A stretch of DNA of 64,000 nt from Candidatus Saccharimonadota bacterium (GTDB lineage Bacteria > Patescibacteriota > Saccharimonadia > Saccharimonadales > Saccharimonadaceae). Every line of letters starts with the position of its first letter. Within the stretch, counting starts at the first letter, position 1. Position numbers and translations under genes: made by a program. The stretch spans positions 1 to 64,000 of the forward strand of contig JAFWNY010000018.1 of the NCBI GenBank assembly GCA_017510075.1, in the 5' to 3' direction. The notes under the pieces were generated by a model. That model ran no database searches and had not been told where the DNA came from. It was given only the letters and a program-made list of their open reading frames with translations. Below are positions 6,413 through 44,997 of this stretch, piece by piece.

Positions 6413-9400
6413 TTAAAGATTTTCGAGATCCGCCTCAGTTGGAATTTTTGAATCAGGCTGCTCGAAATCAATTAGAGGAGCCACTCCAGTGCCTACCGGA
6501 ATCTTACGACCGATAATCACGTTTTCCTTCAGACCTTTCAGCCGATCTACACGACCATTAATTGCTGCGTTAATGAGCACACGAGTCGTATCTTGGAACG
6601 ATGCCGCCGACAAGAACGAATCTGAGAAAATCGACACTTTTGTAATACCAAGTAGCAAATTGGTATAAGTGGCCGGCTCTTTCCCTTCCGCTTCCAACTC
6701 TCGGTTAGCAATTGTCACTGCAGACTTAGAGGTAATGTCTCCCGATACAAAGCTAGAGTCACCCGGCTCATTAATTTGTACCCTGGAGAACATCTGACGC
6801 ACCAAGATCTCAAGATGCTTTGGCGAAATTTCATGCCCTTGTGCCGCATACACATTAAGCACGTCGTTCATGATGTAGCGTTCAGTCGCCTCTACGCCCT
6901 TGTACTTTAGCAAATCCTGCAAGTTCAAAGAGCCAGTGGTCAATCTATCGCCAGCCTTTACCGAATCATTTGACTTCACAACTAGCTCTGCATCACCAGG
7001 GATCTCTATCCGTACTGGAGCGCTCGCTGCAGCCACCAAGATGATTGCGTCTTTCACCAACTCCACGATTGCATCATGCGGAGCTTTAATCGCTGGGCTA
7101 TCACCACTCTTTCTTACCAAAGTAGTGCCAGCCTTTACTGACTCACCATCTTTTACCAAAGGCTTGCGTGATCCAATCTCAAATCGCTCAACCGATCCAG
7201 ATTGTGGAGTAATTTGTGCCACATAATGGTTGCCATCTTCCCAAACCTCCACCACGCCGTCTATCGGAGTAATAAATGCCTGGCCTTTTGGCGTACGGGC
7301 CTCAAGCAGCTCTTCCACACGAGGAAGACCCCTGGCAATTGCACCAGACCCCGCCACACCAGAGCCATGTTTCGTATCGAGCGTCAGCTGCGTACCTGGC
7401 TCACCAAGTGATTGCGCCGCAATTACCCCCACTGGCTCATGCGCCGCCACCAACGACCTAGTTGCCATATCTACACCGTAACTCTTGCGCGGAATACCAT
7501 CCACCGCAGTCGTAGACAAAATCGACTGGATTTTGACTGATTCGATATTTGCATCATCTTGTATCTGCTCAGCCATCTCTTTCGTGATTAATTCGTCTGC
7601 TTCCAAATACCCTGGTATAGGCTCCGCCGTGTAGCGGCCAGCAATCCTTGCGCTAAACTCAATCCCAGATACTTCAGTCTCATCACGATACACCGTAAAC
7701 CCAGGATCTTCCGCTTCCTCATCAGTCGTAAATACATCTTGCGACACATCTACCAGACGTCGCGTCAAATACCCAGAGTCCGCCGTACGTAGTGCCGTCG
7801 ACACCTGACCCTGACGAGCACCTCGCGTCGCAATAAACGACTCCAAAGTATTAAGACCCTTCTTATACGAAGATTTCACCGGCAACTCAATCTCATTGTT
7901 ATTGATATCCACCATGATGCCAATCTCCGCCGAAGCCAGCTTGATGTTCGAAATATTACCACGAGCGCCAGAGTTCACCATCACCGCGATATCCGTATCC
8001 ATCTCCGACAATTTCGATGCCAAAAAGTCCGAAATCTTCTTGTCAATGTCTCTCCAGTTATTAATGGTCAGCTTATATCGCTCTTCGTCCGTCACTAATC
8101 CATCATTGTACTGTTGCTGAATCAATGCCGTCTTTGCATCACCCTCAGCGATAAAGTCGTCGATCTCATCATAAGTCGGATAATCATCCTTCGCCGTCGA
8201 AATCGAAGCCACCGTCTCATATTCAAACGCCAAATCTTTCAAATCATCAGCTGTTTTTGTCATTACATCCGCCCCATAAAGATCAAAGATATCCGCCATC
8301 ACCTTCGACAAGTGCTTCTTAGTCTGTACAGAGTTATCATATGGATAATCTTTTGGCAAGATCTCGTTAAAGATCACTCGACCAAGCGTCGTATTGCGAA
8401 TCTCCTTCTTCGCAAAAACGCGAATCGGTGTCTGCAAGGCAATAACGCCCTGATCATAAGCCATCTCTGCCTCGTAAACCGACGAAAATGCCTTTGGCTC
8501 ACCGGTATCCGTCCCAGGCTTATCATAAGTCAGATAGTAAGCACCTAGCACTACGTCCTGATAAATCGCGAGCACCGGCGAACCGTCCGCAGGCTTCAAC
8601 AAATTCTTCTTTGCAGACATCAATTCCCTCGCCTCTGCTTGTGCCGCATCAGAGAGAGGTAGGTGTACTGCCATCTGGTCACCATCGTAGTCAGCGTTAA
8701 AGCCCGACGCTACCAATGGATGTAGTTTAATCGCCTTACCATCAATCAATCTCGGCTGGAACGCCTGCACGCTCAAACGGTGCAAAGACGGTGCGCGGTT
8801 CAAAAGCACGTATTTACCCTTGATCACCTCATCTAGAGCATCCCACACGACAGTTTCTTTCGTTTCAATCAATCTCGAAGCCGACCGTATATTATTAGCA
8901 TGCTCATTGCTTATCAACCAAGAAATTACAAACGGCTTAAATAGTTCCAAGGCCATCTGCTTCGGCAAACCACATTCATTAAGCTTTAGCTCCGGCCCTA
9001 CTACGATCACCGAGCGCCCAGAGTAATCCACGCGCTTACCGAGTAAGTTCTGGCGGAAACGCCCTTGCTTACCTTTAAGAAGATCGGATAGCGATTTCAA
9101 TTTCCGACGCCCATTCGTAGCATTCGCACCCCTCGTACCATGTGCTGCAGAGTTGTCAATCAGGGCATCCACCGCCTCTTGCAACATCCGCATTTCATTT
9201 CGGCAAATCACCTCTGGAGCATTCAAGTCTAGCAGCTTCTTCAATCGATTGTTACGATTAATCACTCTTCGGTACAAATCGTTCAAGTCTGAGGTCGCAA
9301 ACCGCCCACCAGGCAATGCAATCATTGGCCTAAGATCTGGCGGAATAACCGGAATAGCCGTCAACATCAAATCTTCAGGGCGAATTCCTGCCGCCTGCAT

Positions 9401-10246
9401 TCCTTCAAGGGTCTTTAGCCGCTTCTGGATCTTCTTTTCCTTTTGGCCTTTTGCCTCTTCCTCTTGAACCTTTAGCTCCTCGATCAATTTCTCAAGATTG
9501 ATCTCATCAAGCATCTTCTTAATTGCCGACGCCCCCATCTCTACCGTAATCAACTCTTCATATTCTTCAGGCAAATTACGATACTCCACCTCCGAGATTA
9601 CGCCACCCTTCCTAAATGACTCCAGCATCCCTTTTCGCGAAACATAATCTGCCTCTAGATCTTGCAATTCTTTGGCCTGTTCATCTGCTAATGCTACTGC
9701 ATTTGCATTTTCTTCCTTCCCCGCCTTCTCGAATCGCAATTTAATCGCATCACGCGCAGCATTCGTCCTCTCCTCCAAAGCCTCTAATTCTTTTGCAATA
9801 TCATCGGTCTTAGCATCCGTAATTAGATACGTCGCAAAATACACCACTCGCTCAATATTCTTCACTGTCATATCCAGAAGCAACGATAAAGCCGAAGGCA
9901 CACCACGCATAAACCAAATATGTGCCACCGGTGCCGCAAGCGCAATGTGACCCATCCGCTCCCTACGCGTAATTGACTTAGTTACGAGATTGCCCTCTTT
10001 ATCTACCGCCTGTTCACGCGACCTCACACCTTTGAGCTTAGAATCATGTGGGTTAATATCTTTAGTTGGCCCAAAGATCCTTTCACAAAACAGCCCGTCA
10101 CGTTCCGGCTTCTGAGTACGATAATTGATCGTTTCTGGTTTAGTTACTTCTCCGTAGCTCCAGTTCAAGATATCGTCTCGACTTGCCACCGATAATCTAA
10201 TCGAATCGAAATCCGAAGCGCTGATAAAATTATCCATCCACGCCAT
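6413..10246 (-). CDS. rpoC: RNA polymerase subunit beta-prime, zinc ligands lost
   Basis: A 1277-residue beta-prime subunit starting at MAWMDNF, preceded by an AGAGGAG ribosome-binding site. The magnesium-binding catalytic loop NADYDGDQ is intact, as is the bridge-helix region with GEPGTQLTLDTKH. Two features depart from the family. In the N-terminal zinc-binding domain, between FCERIFGPTKD and RRERMGHI (residues ~60-92), the four-cysteine pattern is replaced by a cysteine-free stretch. The second zinc site is also gone: the usual DCGT reads EAED, and the CxxxxxxCxxC before the GVIAAQS helix (~900-940) has no cysteine. One base separates it from rpoB. Confidence 0.98.
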   Translation of the reverse strand: MAWMDNFISASDFDSIRLSVASRDDILNWSYGEVTKPETINYRTQKPERDGLFCERIFGPTKDINPHDSKLKGVRSREQAVDKEGNLVTKSITRRERMGHIALAAPVAHIWFMRGVPSALSLLLDMTVKNIERVVYFATYLITDAKTDDIAKELEALEERTNAARDAIKLRFEKAGKEENANAVALADEQAKELQDLEADYVSRKGMLESFRKGGVISEVEYRNLPEEYEELITVEMGASAIKKMLDEINLEKLIEELKVQEEEAKGQKEKKIQKRLKTLEGMQAAGIRPEDLMLTAIPVIPPDLRPMIALPGGRFATSDLNDLYRRVINRNNRLKKLLDLNAPEVICRNEMRMLQEAVDALIDNSAAHGTRGANATNGRRKLKSLSDLLKGKQGRFRQNLLGKRVDYSGRSVIVVGPELKLNECGLPKQMALELFKPFVISWLISNEHANNIRSASRLIETKETVVWDALDEVIKGKYVLLNRAPSLHRLSVQAFQPRLIDGKAIKLHPLVASGFNADYDGDQMAVHLPLSDAAQAEARELMSAKKNLLKPADGSPVLAIYQDVVLGAYYLTYDKPGTDTGEPKAFSSVYEAEMAYDQGVIALQTPIRVFAKKEIRNTTLGRVIFNEILPKDYPYDNSVQTKKHLSKVMADIFDLYGADVMTKTADDLKDLAFEYETVASISTAKDDYPTYDEIDDFIAEGDAKTALIQQQYNDGLVTDEERYKLTINNWRDIDKKISDFLASKLSEMDTDIAVMVNSGARGNISNIKLASAEIGIMVDINNNEIELPVKSSYKKGLNTLESFIATRGARQGQVSTALRTADSGYLTRRLVDVSQDVFTTDEEAEDPGFTVYRDETEVSGIEFSARIAGRYTAEPIPGYLEADELITKEMAEQIQDDANIESVKIQSILSTTAVDGIPRKSYGVDMATRSLVAAHEPVGVIAAQSLGEPGTQLTLDTKHGSGVAGSGAIARGLPRVEELLEARTPKGQAFITPIDGVVEVWEDGNHYVAQITPQSGSVERFEIGSRKPLVKDGESVKAGTTLVRKSGDSPAIKAPHDAIVELVKDAIILVAAASAPVRIEIPGDAELVVKSNDSVKAGDRLTTGSLNLQDLLKYKGVEATERYIMNDVLNVYAAQGHEISPKHLEILVRQMFSRVQINEPGDSSFVSGDITSKSAVTIANRELEAEGKEPATYTNLLLGITKVSIFSDSFLSAASFQDTTRVLINAAINGRVDRLKGLKENVIIGRKIPVGTGVAPLIDFEQPDSKIPTEADLENL

Positions 10247-10247
10247 A

Positions 10248-13200
10248 TTAGAACTCCTCTCCGAGGTCAACGGTACCATCATCCTCGTCTACCTCTGTTA
10301 TTTCAATACCTTCTTCCGCCATCATCGCCTCGGCTTCCGTTTCGTCGAGATCAAGAATCTGCGGCTCGGTTTCTTTTTTGTGCTGATCATAGATGGATTG
10401 ATCATCTTTATCTTTTTCAATTTCTTTGGACGTCTTTTCGATTACGTCGCCCGCGTCAGCTGATTCTCCGTGGTCAAGTAGATCTACCTTGAGCCCGAGA
10501 CCTTGCAATTCCTTCACTAACACGTTAAAGCCCTCCGGAAGCTTCGGCCCCTCAATCGGCTCATGTTTAATGATTGCTTCATATGCTTTCGCACGACCAT
10601 ATACGTCATCCGACTTGATCGTAAGCATCTCTTGCAAGGTAGTAGCAGCACCATAAGCTTCAAGGGCCCACACCTCCATCTCCCCGAAGCGCTGACCACC
10701 ATTCTGAGCTTTACCACCCAGCGGCTGCTGCGTCACCATCGTATAAGGGCCAGTCGAACGTGCATGAATCTTGTCTTCCACCATGTGGTGAAGCTTTAGC
10801 ATATGCATCACGCCCACCGAAGTGCGCTCATTAAACGGCTCGCCCGTCAGGCCATCATACAGCTGCACTCTACCATCACGAGCAAAACCCGCCTTCTCTA
10901 ACTCATCGCTGATCTTTTCATCTGGTACGCCGTTAAACGAAGGGGTCGCCACAGTATATCCAAGCGCCCTCGCCGCCATACCTAGATGCGTTTCAAAGAG
11001 CTGCCCGAGATTCATACGGCTCGGCACACCCATCGGTGAAAGCACAATATCAATCGGCGTTCCATCTTCCATAAACGGCATATCTTCTACTGGCAACACT
11101 CTTGATACCACACCCTTGTTACCGTGGCGTCCAGCCAGCTTATCGCCTACGCCAATTTTCCTCATTTCGGCCACGAAAATCTTAATTTGCATAATCACGC
11201 CAGCTTTCAGCTCATGGCCCTGCTCACGAGTATAAACCCGCACATCTACAACTTTACCAGTAGTTGCGCCATTCATTCTCACTGAAGTGTCACGCACGTC
11301 TTTTGCCTTTTCGCCAAAGATAGCTCGGAGTAATCTTTCTTCCGATGACAATTCCTGCTCACCTTTAGGCGTAATCTTACCCACCAGAATGTCACCATTT
11401 GACACCTCTGAACCTACAGCAACAATGCCGTCCTCACCGAGATGCCTAAGAGCATGTTCTGACACATTTGGAATATCACGCGTTACTTGCTCCGGCCCCA
11501 GCTTAGTCTCGCGCACTTCCACATCAAAATCCTTGATATTGATCGACGTAAGCGTATCGTCCTCGACCAATTTATTCGAGATCACAATCGCGTCATCCAT
11601 GTTGTAGCCACGCCAAGGCATAAATGCCACCAAAAGATCACGCCCAAGCGCCAATTCGCCATTGTTAATGGATGCACCTTCAATCAAAGTGTCGCCCTTC
11701 TTAACTTTCTGTCCTCTTGCCACGACGCATCTTTGATTATAGCAACGGTCATCATTAGTCTTCTCAAAATGTTGCAATTTATACTCACGGTCACCACCCT
11801 TTTCGTAAGTCACAATCACGCTCTCGCCGTCTGCTTTTTTCACCACGCCAGCACCCGATGCCATAATTAGCTGTGAAGTGTTTTTGGCGACTTCACGCTC
11901 AATACCCGTACCCACAATCGGATTGTCCTGCTTGAGTAGCGGCACTGCTTGCTTCTGCATAGCGCAGGCCATTAACGAGCGGTCAACGCGGTTTTTCTCG
12001 ACAAATGGGATCAAGCTCGCCGACACACCGAGAATCTCCTTATGTGCCGCATCAATATGCGTCACCCTCGAAGCCTCCACTTGCGAGGGCGTACCATGCA
12101 CCCTAGCCGATACCCAGTCCTCTACGAATTTGCCATTTTTGTCCAGTTTTACCGAAGCGTCAGCGATAATCATGTCGTTTTCCGTATCTGCGTCCATGTA
12201 CACAACTTCATTAGTCACTTTACCATTCTTCACCACTAGATAAGGCGCTTCTATAAACCCATATTCGTTAATCCTAGCATAAGTCGCAAAGTTAAGCACC
12301 AACCCCACGTTGCCGCCTTCTGGAGTCTCCACCGTACAAATCCTACCATAATGCGTCGGGTGCGCATCCCGCACATCAAATCCTGCACGTTCACGAGTCA
12401 AACCGCCAGGCCCCATACTAGACAGGCGCCTCTTATGTGCCAATTCCGAAAACGGATTAACCTCGTCCATCAGCTGTGAAAGTTGTGAGGTAGCAAAGAA
12501 TTCCTTTACAGCTGCGACAACCGGTCGCGAGTTCAAAAGTTGCGAAGGCGTTACTTCATCAGTATTCGCCATTGACATCCTGTCAAGGATATTGCGCTGC
12601 AAGCGAAGCATACCGAGTCGGAATTGACGTTGCACCAATTCGCCCACCAATTTCACTCGGCGATTCGACAACGAATCGATATCATCAGGCGCCTCTTGCG
12701 TATTATTTAGTCTAATGATTTCTGCCACAATCGCCACCACATCCTTCATCTGCAATGTACGATATTCAGGCTTATTTGGCGTATCAAACCCGAGCCGACG
12801 GTTCATCTTAAACCGTCCCACATTCGAATAATCATACCGCTTCGGGTCAAAGAACATCCTCTCAATCATTGATTTTGCATTCTCTACCGTCGCAAGATCA
12901 CCCGGACGCAACCTTCGGTACACCTCGAGAAGCGCCTCACCTTGGCTCGATGTCGTATCCTTATCTAAAGTTATCTCGATATATTTTTTCTCGCCAGTGT
13001 CAACATCCTTAAATGTATCCACAATCTCTGATTTATTCATACCAAGAGCCCTCAGGAATGTCGTCACCGGAATCTTCCTTCGGCGGTCAATCTTCACGTT
13101 GATCGAACCATTCGCCGCCGTCTCAAACTCCAGCCACGCCCCACGACCAGGAATTACCTTGGCGCCATAGTAACGCTTCAGGCCAATAGTCTCTGCGCTA

Positions 13201-39202: not shown

Positions 39203-40117
39203 ATGGACAATAATAAAATCATGATCGTCGGGACTGGTAACGTAGGAGCTAGCATTGCTTTTGCCATCATGAACCAGCGCACCGCCGTCAACGAAATCGT
39301 TTTAACAGATATTATCGCTAAAGACGCCGAGGGCGAAGCCATGGACCTTCGCGACGCCCTTGCCGTCGCCCCCAGCTACGTCAAAATAAGTAACGGCACC
39401 TACAAAGACGCCAAAGATTGCGATGTCGTCGTCATCACCGCCGGCGCCGCCCAGAAGCCCGGCGAGACCCGTATGGATCTCCTCAAGAAGAATGCCAATA
39501 TTCTGAAAGGTATGATCGAGCAGATCATGGACAGCGGCTTTAACGGCATCTTCCTTATCGTTACTAACCCTATGGATGTCCTCACCTATTATGCCATGAA
39601 GTTTTCCGGCCTCCCCTCCGAGAAAATCATCGGCTCTGGCACCGTCCTCGACTCCGCCCGTCTCCGCGCCCGCATTTCCAGCTACCTCCACGTCAATCCC
39701 AAGTCCATCCACGCCTATCAGGTTGGCGAACATGGCGACACCGAGCTAACGTTGTGGTCTCTCGCCGACGTCGGCGGGCAGAAAGTCACCGAATTCCTAG
39801 CGAAAGACCTTCGCACCGGCATCTCCGATTTCGTCAAGAACGAAGCCTACGATATCATCGAGAAAAAAGGCGCCACCTACTACGGCATCGCCACCTGCGT
39901 CGTCAGCATCCTGAATTGTATCTTCAATGACGAAATGCGCGTCCTCCCCGTCTCCTCTTACGACCACTTCTCCGACACTTCCTTCGGTTGGCCTACCGTC
40001 GTCGGGCGCGAAGGCATCATCCGCCGCCTCGACCTCAAGATCTCCGAGCATGAAGGCGTCGAACTCCAAAAGTCCATTAACGCCCTGAAATCTGCCATTA
40101 AATCTGTCAAATACTAA
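39203..40117 (+). CDS. ldh: L-lactate dehydrogenase
   Basis: A 304-residue NAD-dependent 2-hydroxyacid dehydrogenase. It has the Rossmann motif GTGNVGASIAFA, the NAD-specific acid in LTDI, NPMDVLTYYAMK and the catalytic His in YQVGEHGDTELTLWS. The substrate-loop arginine in KPGETRMDLL fits lactate or malate. GEHGDTE and overall similarity favour lactate dehydrogenase, consistent with fermentative growth, but malate dehydrogenase is not fully excluded. The ATG follows the -10 box directly (leaderless). Confidence 0.92.
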   Translation: MDNNKIMIVGTGNVGASIAFAIMNQRTAVNEIVLTDIIAKDAEGEAMDLRDALAVAPSYVKISNGTYKDAKDCDVVVITAGAAQKPGETRMDLLKKNANILKGMIEQIMDSGFNGIFLIVTNPMDVLTYYAMKFSGLPSEKIIGSGTVLDSARLRARISSYLHVNPKSIHAYQVGEHGDTELTLWSLADVGGQKVTEFLAKDLRTGISDFVKNEAYDIIEKKGATYYGIATCVVSILNCIFNDEMRVLPVSSYDHFSDTSFGWPTVVGREGIIRRLDLKISEHEGVELQKSINALKSAIKSVKY

Positions 40118-41435
40118 GCGATTGCAGATATAACAGCAGCTCTTCCCGCACGAAGTCATCTGTCACTTTCTTAAGCTCCTCCATAAACTTCGGCAATTGT
40201 CGCTCTAGTCTCGCCCGTCGGTATTCTTCATATTTAGTGGCCTCCGACTCACTTAACGATTGCGGGAAATTCCGCCCTTTATAGTGCAACAATAGTTCCG
40301 GCAACCTCGGATCATGAAAATCCGGATGAAAATCCGCCAATCTTGACGCGTCCGCATTCCGCACCGCCGCCACCTTAATCCTATCCGAATCATTCAAAAA
40401 ACCATCATACAGTGCTGCCTCCGGCTCCAGACTAGGCGGAAACTCTGGCCGCTCCTCATGTTCCGTCCGCATTCGCTCCGCAAACTCTGGATGAGCCATC
40501 AAAACCCGCAAATTCTCCTCTACCGTCGCCTTATCCAAGCCAATCTTCCTCCACCCATCACCACTATCCAATACCGCCAACGGCGCCACCGCCGGGCACT
40601 TATTATAGCACAGCTCCTTCACGATCGGGTAAGTTTTTTCCTCGTCAATTTCATTCAAATTATACCGGAGGTCATATACTAGCACATTCCCATTCCGCCC
40701 AGGCGCAATTGGCACCACCACGGTAGTTTTATTAAATTCATTCGCATACCTCCCCGAAGCATATACCACCGGCTTCGGGTCCTGCAGGTTCACCAACTTC
40801 TGCACTTCCCGCTTCTCCCGCATCCGATACAAGTAATCAAACAATTTCGGCTGCTTCTCTCGTATTAGCCGCGCCACCGCAATCGTCGCATACACATCAG
40901 ACAAAGCATCATGTGCATGCTCATGCTCCACCCCATTTAGCTTAGTCAGCAGTTCTAGTCGGTTCGTCGGCTTCCCGTCCTCCGTAAACGGCCACTCTAT
41001 CCCCTCCGGCCGAAGCGCCCGTGTCAGCCGCACCACATCCAGCATATCCCAGCGGCTTCTACCATCCTTCCACTCCCACTCATACGGATCATAGAAATTC
41101 CGCCACAAGCAAGCCCGCATAAACTCATCATCAAATCTCACCGTATTATATCCCACCGCCACCGTGCCCGGCACAAACACTTCCTCCGTCACAAATCGAC
41201 AAAACTCCGCCTCGCTCACCCCATCCATTAAGGTAGCCTGCGGTGTAATCCCCGTCACATTAATCGCCCCCGGGCTCGGCAAGGCATCATCCGTCATTTT
41301 CACCAATATATTCACCGGCTCCCCTATCGGCTCAAGCTCCATCGAAGTCCTCTGCCCCGCAAACTGCATTATCCTATCCTCCCGCGCCTTCAGCCCCGAA
41401 GTCTCCAGATCATAAAAGAAAAACGTCTTCTCCAT
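40107..41435 (-). CDS. sbcB: Exodeoxyribonuclease I
   Basis: A 442-residue single-strand 3'-5' exonuclease of the DEDDh family. The first acidic motif is in FFYDLETSG, the second in VGYNTVRFDDEF, and the third in HEHAHDALSDVYAT with the catalytic His. The C-terminal part matches the ExoI SH3-like and helical domains (PKPVVYASGRY). The start MEKTFFFYDLE was chosen because TATAAT lies 6 nt before it. The end overlaps the convergent ldh 3' end by 11 bases. Confidence 0.93.
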   Translation of the reverse strand: MEKTFFFYDLETSGLKAREDRIMQFAGQRTSMELEPIGEPVNILVKMTDDALPSPGAINVTGITPQATLMDGVSEAEFCRFVTEEVFVPGTVAVGYNTVRFDDEFMRACLWRNFYDPYEWEWKDGRSRWDMLDVVRLTRALRPEGIEWPFTEDGKPTNRLELLTKLNGVEHEHAHDALSDVYATIAVARLIREKQPKLFDYLYRMREKREVQKLVNLQDPKPVVYASGRYANEFNKTTVVVPIAPGRNGNVLVYDLRYNLNEIDEEKTYPIVKELCYNKCPAVAPLAVLDSGDGWRKIGLDKATVEENLRVLMAHPEFAERMRTEHEERPEFPPSLEPEAALYDGFLNDSDRIKVAAVRNADASRLADFHPDFHDPRLPELLLHYKGRNFPQSLSESEATKYEEYRRARLERQLPKFMEELKKVTDDFVREELLLYLQSLSI

Positions 41436-41441
41436 ACCTCT

Positions 41442-41447
41442 ATTATA
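41442..41447 (-). promoter_or_regulatory. -10 box of sbcB
   Basis: TATAAT 6 nt before the ATG; leaderless transcript predicted. Confidence 0.6.
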
Positions 41448-41480
41448 TCTTAAAACACCCGTTTTTAACACCCCAATCTC

Positions 41481-41553: not shown

Positions 41554-41643
41554 AAAAACATTGAGTTGGCTATACCAACCCAATAAGAACCTTAAGAGAG
41601 TAACCCGGCACAGCCGGTGATAAAAAAACAGGGGGAATCGGAA

Positions 41644-42141
41644 ATGAATACTTTTTATCACAAAATGAGCATTTTAGACATGCTCACCGGCAACTGGTGG
41701 ACGATAATAGCTGCGGTATTCATCATCGTAGCCATTGTCATCGCCGTGAACCAATACGGCATCAGAAACAGCCGCCTCGTCAAGAATTTTGGCGATACGC
41801 CCTATTTTCTGCTCGGTGCAGCAGCCGCACTGACGATTAGCGTACTACTCGTAGTCGAATCGCATGCCGGCATTATCCAGCTTCTGGATAATGCCCTGCG
41901 CGGCAACGAATCGCCATTACTGTCAGGTCTGCTTTTAGGCCCAACCGCAATGGTATTCGGCGGAATGTTTGGGTTCGCACTGATAATTCTCAGCGAAGCC
42001 ATCGCAACATTCCGTAAGCGGAGTCTCATCAAGAAGCTCCGCCGCATCTCGGAGCAACGTCGCAAAGCCCAAGCCAAGCGGCATAAGGTCAACCACCACA
42101 CCAACCGGGTCAGCACCGGCAAAGGCATGCGCCGGTGCTGA
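41644..42141 (+). CDS. Orphan membrane protein
   Basis: A 165-residue protein not recognised as any family. It has three likely transmembrane helices (~19-36, ~53-72, ~98-122) and a very basic C-terminal tail (~125-165, Arg/Lys/His-rich) that could touch nucleic acid or membrane lipid. The ATG at 41644 follows a GGGGG purine site; an upstream GTG at 41617 is less likely. It has a perfect-consensus promoter, a ~85-nt leader and a strong terminator, so expression is probably high. Confidence 0.7.
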   Translation: MNTFYHKMSILDMLTGNWWTIIAAVFIIVAIVIAVNQYGIRNSRLVKNFGDTPYFLLGAAAALTISVLLVVESHAGIIQLLDNALRGNESPLLSGLLLGPTAMVFGGMFGFALIILSEAIATFRKRSLIKKLRRISEQRRKAQAKRHKVNHHTNRVSTGKGMRRC

Positions 42142-42260: not shown

Positions 42261-42392
42261 CTACCTAACGGGTTCAAAACCCCAACCCCTACTCCTTTCT
42301 CGTCCAGAAATGCCTAGGCTGATTTTATCATGAAATACTAAACGGCGCAAATTGAGCAATGAAAGTTCCTTTGGGGTTCCGGAAAGGCGGGA

Positions 42393-42406
42393 AGCGCGAA
42401 AGCGCT
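42393..42406. other. GAAA-tetraloop hairpin downstream of the variable region
   Basis: AGCGC-GAAA-GCGCT, 20 bp beyond the stop of the surface-protein gene. In characterised diversity-generating retroelements, a short hairpin with a GRNA-type loop just past the variable region promotes mutagenic homing. Confidence 0.55.
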
Positions 42407-42425
42407 AAACACGGAATGCCTACGG

Positions 42426-44183
42426 CTACCGAGCCACGCAGCGCACCGAGTAGCCGTAGTTGCGACTGAGGCAGCTCTGGGGGTAGAGGTAGCCATCAAC
42501 AGCGAAGTCGAGGCCGTACGCGCCGCCGGACGAGTAGACCACCGACGACCAGTAGCCGCCGCCGGAGCCAACGCCGTACGACGACCCGCCCCAGTACCCG
42601 CCAAACACGAAATACACAGGCGAGTTTTGTATATTACCACTTGTTCCAGAAGTGAGGCTCAGTTGATTTACTAAGTACTGGAATGATTTGGAACCAGTAT
42701 TAGTAGTGCCACTAATTGGAAGTCGCCAACCTGCTGGGCAGATGGATTGGTTTACATCGGTATTCTGGGTGGTGTAGCTGCTAGAATCGTTCATGGCGAC
42801 GGCTGCAGTCCAGTTGTAATAGTTGCCGATATGATAGTGTTTATCGTCACCGCAAGTCGTCGTACCGTTGCTAAGAGTTGTTCCCCAGTTCTCGTCTAAC
42901 ATCCCGTTCCAGCAGAGGTCGCCCGGATCATAAGAGCGTGGGGTAGTCCTTCCCGTAGCAGAAGTATCCCAAGTGGTAGTAGTGGTTGTGGCATTGCTCG
43001 GCACCCAAGCCGAAGATACATCTGTAGTGGTAGAATCATAAGTCACGCTCCCGTCTGTGACAATGTCATGGTCTAGATTTTGTGTCATCCAGATATTACC
43101 ATCTGCGAGTTTAGCTACCGTGTATTCTTTATTATCTCTTGTGTCCACGGCGGTTATCTCATCACCGGTGCTGAGTGTACTGCCCCATGTGGTTACGTCT
43201 TGCATGGCGAGGACGGAAGGAGCTGGGCTTCTCCATGTAGCATACATATTCACATTAACCGTACTTCCACTTCCTTGGCTTGCGGCTGGGATGATGTAGA
43301 TTCTGCCCGGTTCGTAAGTAGTGCCAGGGCAAGTAGTTGGATCACTTGAGTTATTAGTGTCGCACCAACCCTTGAATACATACCCGTCCCTCGTTGGGGC
43401 AGTCGTGGATATATTGACTATGCCATCATTAGTGGTTTGGCTAGGCAGACTAGATGGTAGTCCAGTCCCTTCATTGGTAGTATCTATGTAGTTTAGATTA
43501 TAAGTAGTAGTTACTACTTTGCCTACACCAATGAAGTTGATGGTGTTGGTGTAAGTACCTGCTATTTGATTAAGTGAGGCTTTGGCTCCGATTTTGAACT
43601 TGAGTTCTGTTTCGCTAGGAGTAGTGGTATTTGCCAGCATTACGCCAGTAGTGTTACTACTAGCATTGTATTGTGGTAGACCATTATAGCCATTTGCTGT
43701 ACTGCCACTATTACCACTAACCCAGTAAGTATTGTCTGTGTCACAATCGTTAGTAGTAAGACAGTAACTATAGCCCCAAGTATTGTCATTGAAGTTAGAG
43801 AGTTCTGTTACGTTAGAGGATAGGTTAGTGAAGACATTGGTAGTATTGGAACTAGTGATCCTTAAATCTGTATAGTTATTAGTGCTACTACCTACTGTAC
43901 TATATAGTGTATAACCATGTGTGTCATTACTGCCAGCTGTGACTGTAATGATATTGCTATCACTACTACTACCTGGTGCTAAATCTGGGATGATTAAGTC
44001 TCCTGTGACATTAATACTAACAGTAGGGTTGAAGGTGAATTGCATGTCTACCTGAGACTGATAGGTCAGCGCACTCGCCTCCCCACCAAAAAGCTCCGCC
44101 ACCCCCACGGAGCCACCAACAACCGCCCCCATTGCCATTAACATTAATAAAAATGTTGATATTCTTTTCGTACGCCTTTTCAT
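42426..44183 (-). CDS. Secreted surface protein with retroelement-type variable C-terminus
   Basis: A 585-residue exported protein. It has a signal peptide (~8-40), a Ser/Thr/Asn-rich region to ~245, and an InlB/Listeria-Bacteroides-type repeat (~250-335, GYVFKGWCDT). A C-type-lectin-like Fib_succ_major domain runs from ~350 to the end (LADGNIWMTQNLDH, CPAGWRLP, GYWSS, YSVRCVAR). The last 58 codons are GC-rich, dominated by NNC codons such as TAC, GGC and CTC, and end in a GC-rich stretch, unlike the AT-richer rest. MKRRTK is the start, 6 nt after TATAAT. Confidence 0.88.
   Translation of the reverse strand: MKRRTKRISTFLLMLMAMGAVVGGSVGVAELFGGEASALTYQSQVDMQFTFNPTVSINVTGDLIIPDLAPGSSSDSNIITVTAGSNDTHGYTLYSTVGSSTNNYTDLRITSSNTTNVFTNLSSNVTELSNFNDNTWGYSYCLTTNDCDTDNTYWVSGNSGSTANGYNGLPQYNASSNTTGVMLANTTTPSETELKFKIGAKASLNQIAGTYTNTINFIGVGKVVTTTYNLNYIDTTNEGTGLPSSLPSQTTNDGIVNISTTAPTRDGYVFKGWCDTNNSSDPTTCPGTTYEPGRIYIIPAASQGSGSTVNVNMYATWRSPAPSVLAMQDVTTWGSTLSTGDEITAVDTRDNKEYTVAKLADGNIWMTQNLDHDIVTDGSVTYDSTTTDVSSAWVPSNATTTTTTWDTSATGRTTPRSYDPGDLCWNGMLDENWGTTLSNGTTTCGDDKHYHIGNYYNWTAAVAMNDSSSYTTQNTDVNQSICPAGWRLPISGTTNTGSKSFQYLVNQLSLTSGTSGNIQNSPVYFVFGGYWGGSSYGVGSGGGYWSSVVYSSGGAYGLDFAVDGYLYPQSCLSRNYGYSVRCVAR
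42430..42602 (-). other. Candidate variable region of a diversity-generating retroelement
   Basis: The pattern GGGYWSS...AYGLDF...G...PQ...R..GYSVRCV matches known retroelement target proteins. Positions that carry AAC-encoded Asn in templates are here Tyr, Gly, Ser, Val, Leu or Asp in NNY codons. No template repeat or reverse transcriptase was seen in the window. Confidence 0.65.
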
Positions 44184-44268: not shown

Positions 44269-44997
44269 CTATTGCTGGCTCATCATCTCATCATAATCAA
44301 TCCCGTACTGCGCATACTGTACCTTCATATAGGCCGTATCGAGCTCCTGTGCCAATGTCTTTAACGGGTCTTCCTTCGCTACCGCCATCACCAAGAACCT
44401 CAGCGGCTTATTATAACCACCGCATATCTCCATTGATTCTCCATAAGCTAATTCTCCTGGCACCGTAATTCGTCGCACACCGCCTAGTTTCATACCGTCC
44501 ACACCTTGTACCCACCCTTCAATCATCCCTAGCGAAGCATCCAGCACCTTCGCAAACGCCGTCGGGTTGCTATTGTCGTCAAACGATGAGTCAAACACTG
44601 TCTCGTCCGCACACCATCCCACATAATATGCCAGATAATCCGAGTCCTCAGTCGTTAGTGCCTTTCCCGATCCTTCCTTCAAGTCCTTCACCTGCACGCC
44701 ACCTTCATTTGCTGTAGTTTCATTATATGCCTTGATCTCCGACTTATACTGGATGAATTTATCGTAGTCGCCCTTCGTCTTTTCCTTAAATTCCGCTACC
44801 TTTTCCTCATATTCGTCCGCATACTGCTGCGCCTTCTCTTCGCTAATTTGTGATTCCTCACCAGTACTAGCACTCGAGCTCGATCCCCCCGCCACAATCA
44901 AAGCATACCCCGCAATCATCGACCCCAGCATCAATATCGCAATCACCCCAATAAAAATTCGCTGCTTCATACTAGTTTTTAATTCTTTTTCTTCCAT
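44269..44997 (-). CDS. Membrane-anchored FKBP-type peptidyl-prolyl isomerase
   Basis: A 242-residue protein. An N-terminal transmembrane helix (~12-32) and a Ser-rich linker lead to a helical region (~45-95), then an FKBP domain (~105-215: VYFD-like DETVFDSSFDD, IEGWVQGVDGMKLGGVRRITVPGELAYGE). It probably helps fold exported proteins outside the membrane. It follows rplO but has its own promoter after the rplO terminator. Confidence 0.88.
   Translation of the reverse strand: MEEKELKTSMKQRIFIGVIAILMLGSMIAGYALIVAGGSSSSASTGEESQISEEKAQQYADEYEEKVAEFKEKTKGDYDKFIQYKSEIKAYNETTANEGGVQVKDLKEGSGKALTTEDSDYLAYYVGWCADETVFDSSFDDNSNPTAFAKVLDASLGMIEGWVQGVDGMKLGGVRRITVPGELAYGESMEICGGYNKPLRFLVMAVAKEDPLKTLAQELDTAYMKVQYAQYGIDYDEMMSQQ

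Follow-up and report, generated by a model that had tools for sequence, protein, structure and literature searches.

The region at positions 42426-42602 of the 64,000-nucleotide stretch of DNA analyzed here (the window) is very probably the variable region (VR) of a target gene of a diversity-generating retroelement (DGR), remote or orphan, in a ruminant-gut Candidatus Saccharibacteria genome. The terms remote or orphan follow from the absence of a template both beside the VR and in the assembled genome. On the basis of established DGR biology, an error-prone reverse transcriptase (RT) would copy an adenine-rich template RNA, misincorporating opposite the adenines, and the cDNA would then replace the 3′ end of the target gene (homing). 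The residues changed in this way would belong to a secreted C-type-lectin-like domain, of which they would form a binding face. Most likely, the cognate template was not found because it, perhaps together with a dedicated RT, lies in an unassembled, repeat-rich part of the genome.

Variable region and target protein

The sequence-only reading had claimed a DGR-type variable region, with a C-terminal pattern (GYWSS...AYGLDF...PQ...R..GYSVRCV) and a run of NNC/NNT codons. Both are present at 42426-42602 on the minus strand, the pattern within the target open reading frame (ORF), where it ends in GYSVRCVAR, and the region is GC-rich. The close relatives found belong to Candidatus Saccharibacteria, and most of them come from ruminant guts. 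One of them, RGIG5750 (hereafter G009; sheep ileum, JAFWHS010000014.1), carries target, template repeat (TR), RT, and accessory gene all together, and its VR differs from its own TR at 27 sites, all 27 being adenines.

Over 174 bases, a gap-free alignment joins the window VR and the G009 TR. The template adenines are changed at 39 of 54 sites and the other bases at 17 of 120 (Fisher p = 9.1e-14), in a test that is not fully independent of protein selection because the adenines of the G009 template sit in exposed-loop codons. Among the adenine-site differences, 35 of the 39 fall on codon positions 1-2. Among the non-adenine ones, 11 of the 17 fall on codon position 3, the excess that drift of the template itself between species should produce. 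Outside adenines, the G009 template matches the window VR at 86% of sites; the differences are enriched at adenines and not confined to them, as expected since this template is non-cognate. As an upstream control, the comparison of 193 codons of the target with G009 showed no adenine bias (odds ratio 1.01, p = 1). The adenine excess over the G009 template goes beyond what chance would give and, together with the predicted fold of the protein, upholds the identification of 42426-42602 as a genuine DGR variable region of the target gene.

The N-terminus of the target protein is signal-peptide-like on inspection, with a basic start, a hydrophobic stretch, and small residues. Profile searches matched the List_Bact repeat (TIGR02543) and, above its curated cut-off, the FISUMP family (TIGR02145; E = 2.7e-11, 44.4 bits versus 41.65), while PF09603, the Pfam counterpart of TIGR02145, scored under its cut-off. 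The AlphaFold2 model of the FISUMP domain has high confidence (pLDDT 96.9, pTM 0.93) and places the VR inside a predicted C-type-lectin-fold domain at the C-terminus of the target. A Foldseek search with the model found no significant PDB match. VIA-align ranked the DGR target TvpA of Treponema first (Z 7.5) and, beneath it, Legionella Lcl, Mtd (Z 5.2-5.3), which is the other DGR target among the fold matches, and C-type lectins; all Z values are below 8, which gives support for fold likeness and not proof. The resemblance of the model to the C-type-lectin-fold DGR targets TvpA and Mtd is thus to be taken as supportive only. Outside the window, at positions 67735-68727 of the same contig (C16), a gene is 77% identical to the N-terminal half of the target (residues 33-370).

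After the stop codon of the target gene lies a conserved element that reads TTTAGCGCTTTCGCGCTTCCCGCCTTTCCGGAA on the coding strand. Counterparts are present after both the VR and the TR of G009, and after the targets of RGIG5735, RGIG524, and others, and the alignment of the 3′ flanks of the window and G009 scores above 1000 of 1000 shuffles. The element is unique within the window, according to a pattern derived with the window included. A GAAA hairpin near the stop codon had been noted earlier. The hairpin exists, inside the conserved element, but a role for it as the recognition element is not supported: its pairing is not conserved, and no such hairpin forms at the equivalent position in G009, which has a complete cassette; its orientation is opposite; and its fold energy is unremarkable in that context, with z = -0.76 across 56 nt and -2.4 across the 28-nt core. 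On these three grounds, it was rejected as the recognition element. Guo et al. (PMC3240598) define the hairpin that follows the VR as a 7-10 bp GC-rich stem with a sense-strand GRNA loop, a definition made for phage DGRs and not shown to be universal; after the window VR, the stem has 5 bp and the sense loop is TTTC. The homing site may rather be marked by the conserved sequence, which is the better candidate.

Table 1. Coordinates of the features discussed, as positions of the window
Feature	Position	Strand	Basis or remark
DGR target gene (probable)	42426..44183	-	ORF; secreted 585-aa protein, FISUMP domain at C-terminus
Signal-peptide-like N-terminus, residues 1-38, boundary approximate	44070..44183	-	Read by eye from sequence
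FISUMP domain with predicted C-type-lectin-like fold, residues 321-585	42429..43223	-	AlphaFold2 model and VIA-align
Variable region (VR; probable)	42426..42602	-	Adenine-biased differences versus G009 template
Conserved DNA element after stop, candidate homing/recognition site (putative function)	42377..42409	-	Counterparts in relatives
Hairpin noted earlier, not conserved	42393..42406	-	5-bp stem; loop TTTC (coding strand) or GAAA (+ strand)
Exonuclease-like gene, bordering the syntenic locus on the left	40107..41471	-	At locus in 21/21 relatives examined
Small membrane-protein gene (context)	41617..42141	+	In G034, a related gene separates target and FKBP
FKBP-type isomerase-like gene, bordering the locus on the right, then ribosomal protein genes	44269..44997	-	Synteny

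Retroelement machinery of the genome

The window belongs to contig C16 of a 667,633-base assembly that is 83% complete. PF00078 matched two RT genes in this genome, on contigs C9 and C24 only, and no RT, Avd, or template was found in the window or in the rest of C16; the template scan of the window, which accepted only the VR base or A at each template position, returned the VR alone. This agrees with the earlier claim that the window holds neither RT nor template. The adjacency of RT, Avd, and template to the target is not obligatory, as remote and partial targets are known.

Both RTs share the motif [IV]GxxxSQ with known DGR RTs and lie in cassettes with adenine-only VR/TR pairs, so that DGR-type RTs are encoded in the same genome as the window VR. 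The C9 cassette (L011) is complete, with the target at 6732-8480, the accessory gene at 8655-9611, the RT at 9613-10926, and the template near 11253-11437; its VR and TR differ at 24 sites, every one of which is a template adenine. The C24 RT is adjoined by an Avd-like gene (PHROG 3206, E = 1.2e-4) and by a DUF6273-like target, and the sole non-adenine mismatch in the C24 template scan lies at the 3′ edge of the template. This second cassette has its own TR, its target is truncated by the contig end, and its RT (L012:6609-7713) is broken into two overlapping frames just past YMDD, by a frameshift or an assembly error. The RT-adjoining genes L011:8655-9611 and L072:6940-7845 both encode proteins of about 300 aa, with 22% mutual identity and a single weak Avd match in the C-terminal part (NF033474, E = 0.004, under cut-off); these proteins are possibly enlarged Avd-like proteins.

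The sequence-only reading had expected, elsewhere in the genome, an RT and a near-copy of the VR differing mainly at adenines. The RTs are there and the near-copy did not emerge: scanning the assembly with the central 65 bases of the VR, with adenines free and at most 3 mismatches, gave only the VR itself, and a synthetic AAC-rich template gave strong matches only to the VR and the C9 TR. Compared with the window VR, the C9 template has mismatches at 35 of 116 aligned non-adenine sites and was excluded as its source because of this excess, and the C24 template was excluded as it serves a different, DUF6273-like target. The proposal of a remote target is therefore borne out as regards DGR RTs encoded elsewhere in the genome, but no resident template fits and the cognate one was not found in the incomplete assembly.

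The same assembly contains nine further VRs of one family (B), on six contigs (C2, C3, C6, C8, C10, and C17; among them L019, L020, L021, L022, L068, and L069), in which variation falls mainly on codon positions 1-2 and for which no template is visible in the assembly. Two FISUMP targets, on contigs C32 (L066:2-1750) and C27 (L067:2-1729), are related to the C9 VR and have 13 common non-adenine differences from the C9 TR, which suggests that they probably have their own unseen template. In general, many VR genes of this genome are located at contig ends, making it likely that the assembly breaks at these repeated genes.

Related genomes and competing explanations

The order of exonuclease, target, FKBP, and rplO is syntenic across the genus. 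At this locus, a gene with the N-terminal or the FISUMP domain of the target is present in 15 of the 21 relatives, and an RT, an accessory gene, and a TR lie beside the target in G034 only, where VR and TR differ at adenines alone. A related C-terminus of VR type also occurs at this locus in another relative, G106. The G034 arrangement prompted the idea of a recent cassette loss from the locus; the loss was not demonstrated, the RT-less state being the usual one. The adenine-only VR/TR differences in G009, C9, and G034 show that the mechanism operates on the protein family of the target.

Two near-complete relatives, G003 (97% complete, 7 contigs) and G018 (99%), contain VR groups with strong variation at codon positions 1-2 (e.g., 12, 14, and 1 differences by codon position in a G003 group). 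These groups include L188 and L192 in G003, and L196, L200, and L201 in G018. No RT was found in either genome by Pfam or protein search, and no template was found. Template loss or uncaptured machinery is thus a real alternative, and loss is favored as much as missing assembly. Across the genus, 95 of 170 genomes have RT genes by PF00078, which also matches non-DGR RTs, and 51 of 174 have a match to the G009 template, such matches being VRs as well as templates. Two scans of viral contigs found no relatives of the FISUMP domain or of the G009 RT, with single-protein queries that reach close relatives only.

It is quite conceivable, if short of probable, that the window VR is a fossil, diversified by a DGR in the past and now frozen after the loss of its cognate template and RT. 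The template missing from the assembly, the same condition in G003 and G018, and the presence of an RT at the locus in just one relative out of 21 are consistent with this explanation, as is the suggestion of a possible fossil nature for the partial DGRs of Nanoarchaeota (PMC4372165). On the other side, the assembly is incomplete and breaks at VR genes, and the target gene keeps an intact reading frame and an intact element past its stop codon.

An unlikely explanation is that the resident C9 RT acts on the window VR in trans, through a second, unseen template. Coherently with it, the C9 RT is 49% identical to the RT of G009, which serves a related VR, and the C9 and G009 targets are both FISUMP proteins; however, the C9 template is not the source of the window VR, and no second template was found in the assembly. 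A similarly doubtful idea is that Saccharibacteria of this genus keep a large repertoire of DGR-diversified surface lectins without stably carrying the templates and RT alongside them in one genome. A transient or separately carried DGR would then make variants that are later kept as template-less genes. Cases in point would be the window VR, the nine VRs of family B, and the two RT-less genomes, G003 and G018.

FISUMP domains are also known outside DGRs, and in a GC-rich region ordinary divergence of such a lectin-like domain could give NNC codons through base composition and loop residues with no retroelement, an explanation that is highly improbable and disfavored because the differences cluster at the adenines of the G009 template, the upstream part of the domain is unbiased, and sister VRs differ from their own templates at adenines only.

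Known systems and biological meaning

Like Treponema TvpA (2y3c) and Mtd of Bordetella phage BPP-1 (1yu0, 1yu1), the probable remote or orphan target in the window has a C-type-lectin-like domain with the VR at its C-terminal end. Unlike them, it belongs to the FISUMP family, has no adjacent RT, Avd, or template, and lacks a sense-strand GRNA-loop hairpin as in Guo et al. (PMC3240598). The complete DGRs of G009 and G034 have the same target family, that of G034 at the same locus, and differ from the window in that RT, accessory gene, and TR adjoin the target. Cellular DGRs of CPR/Patescibacteria were reportedly described by Paul et al. in 2017, and the window resembles these in coming from a CPR bacterium and encoding a C-type-lectin-like target.

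In Roux et al. 2021 (PMC8144416), cellular DGRs of CPR with C-type-lectin targets make up DGR clade 2. The CPR DGR targets described earlier are most commonly a C-lectin fused to an AAA ATPase (PMC10907252), whereas the present case is host-associated with a secreted FISUMP target. The partial DGRs of the DUSEL4 Nanoarchaeota consist of target, VR, and cis elements only, with adenine mutagenesis without RT (PMC4372165), and raise the same fossil-or-remote question; in contrast to them, the host here is a bacterium (Saccharibacteria), a relative is known to carry a matching template, and the genome has further template-less VR families. A partial literature search found no paper on DGR-diversified FISUMP proteins or on DGRs of rumen Saccharibacteria. 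Both CPR DGRs and partial DGRs reduced to the target have been published before, and the window VR belongs to a known kind.

Saccharibacteria are host-dependent and ultrasmall, and they must recognize partner cells and adapt to new ones. A hypervariable secreted lectin-like family would make a direct candidate for a role in recognizing or evading partners. As RT-anchored DGR surveys are blind to remote targets (PMC8144416), they miss remote or orphan ones, and the diversified repertoire of Saccharibacteria is likely underestimated. The template-less VRs in near-complete genomes make it testable whether such regions are active in trans or frozen.
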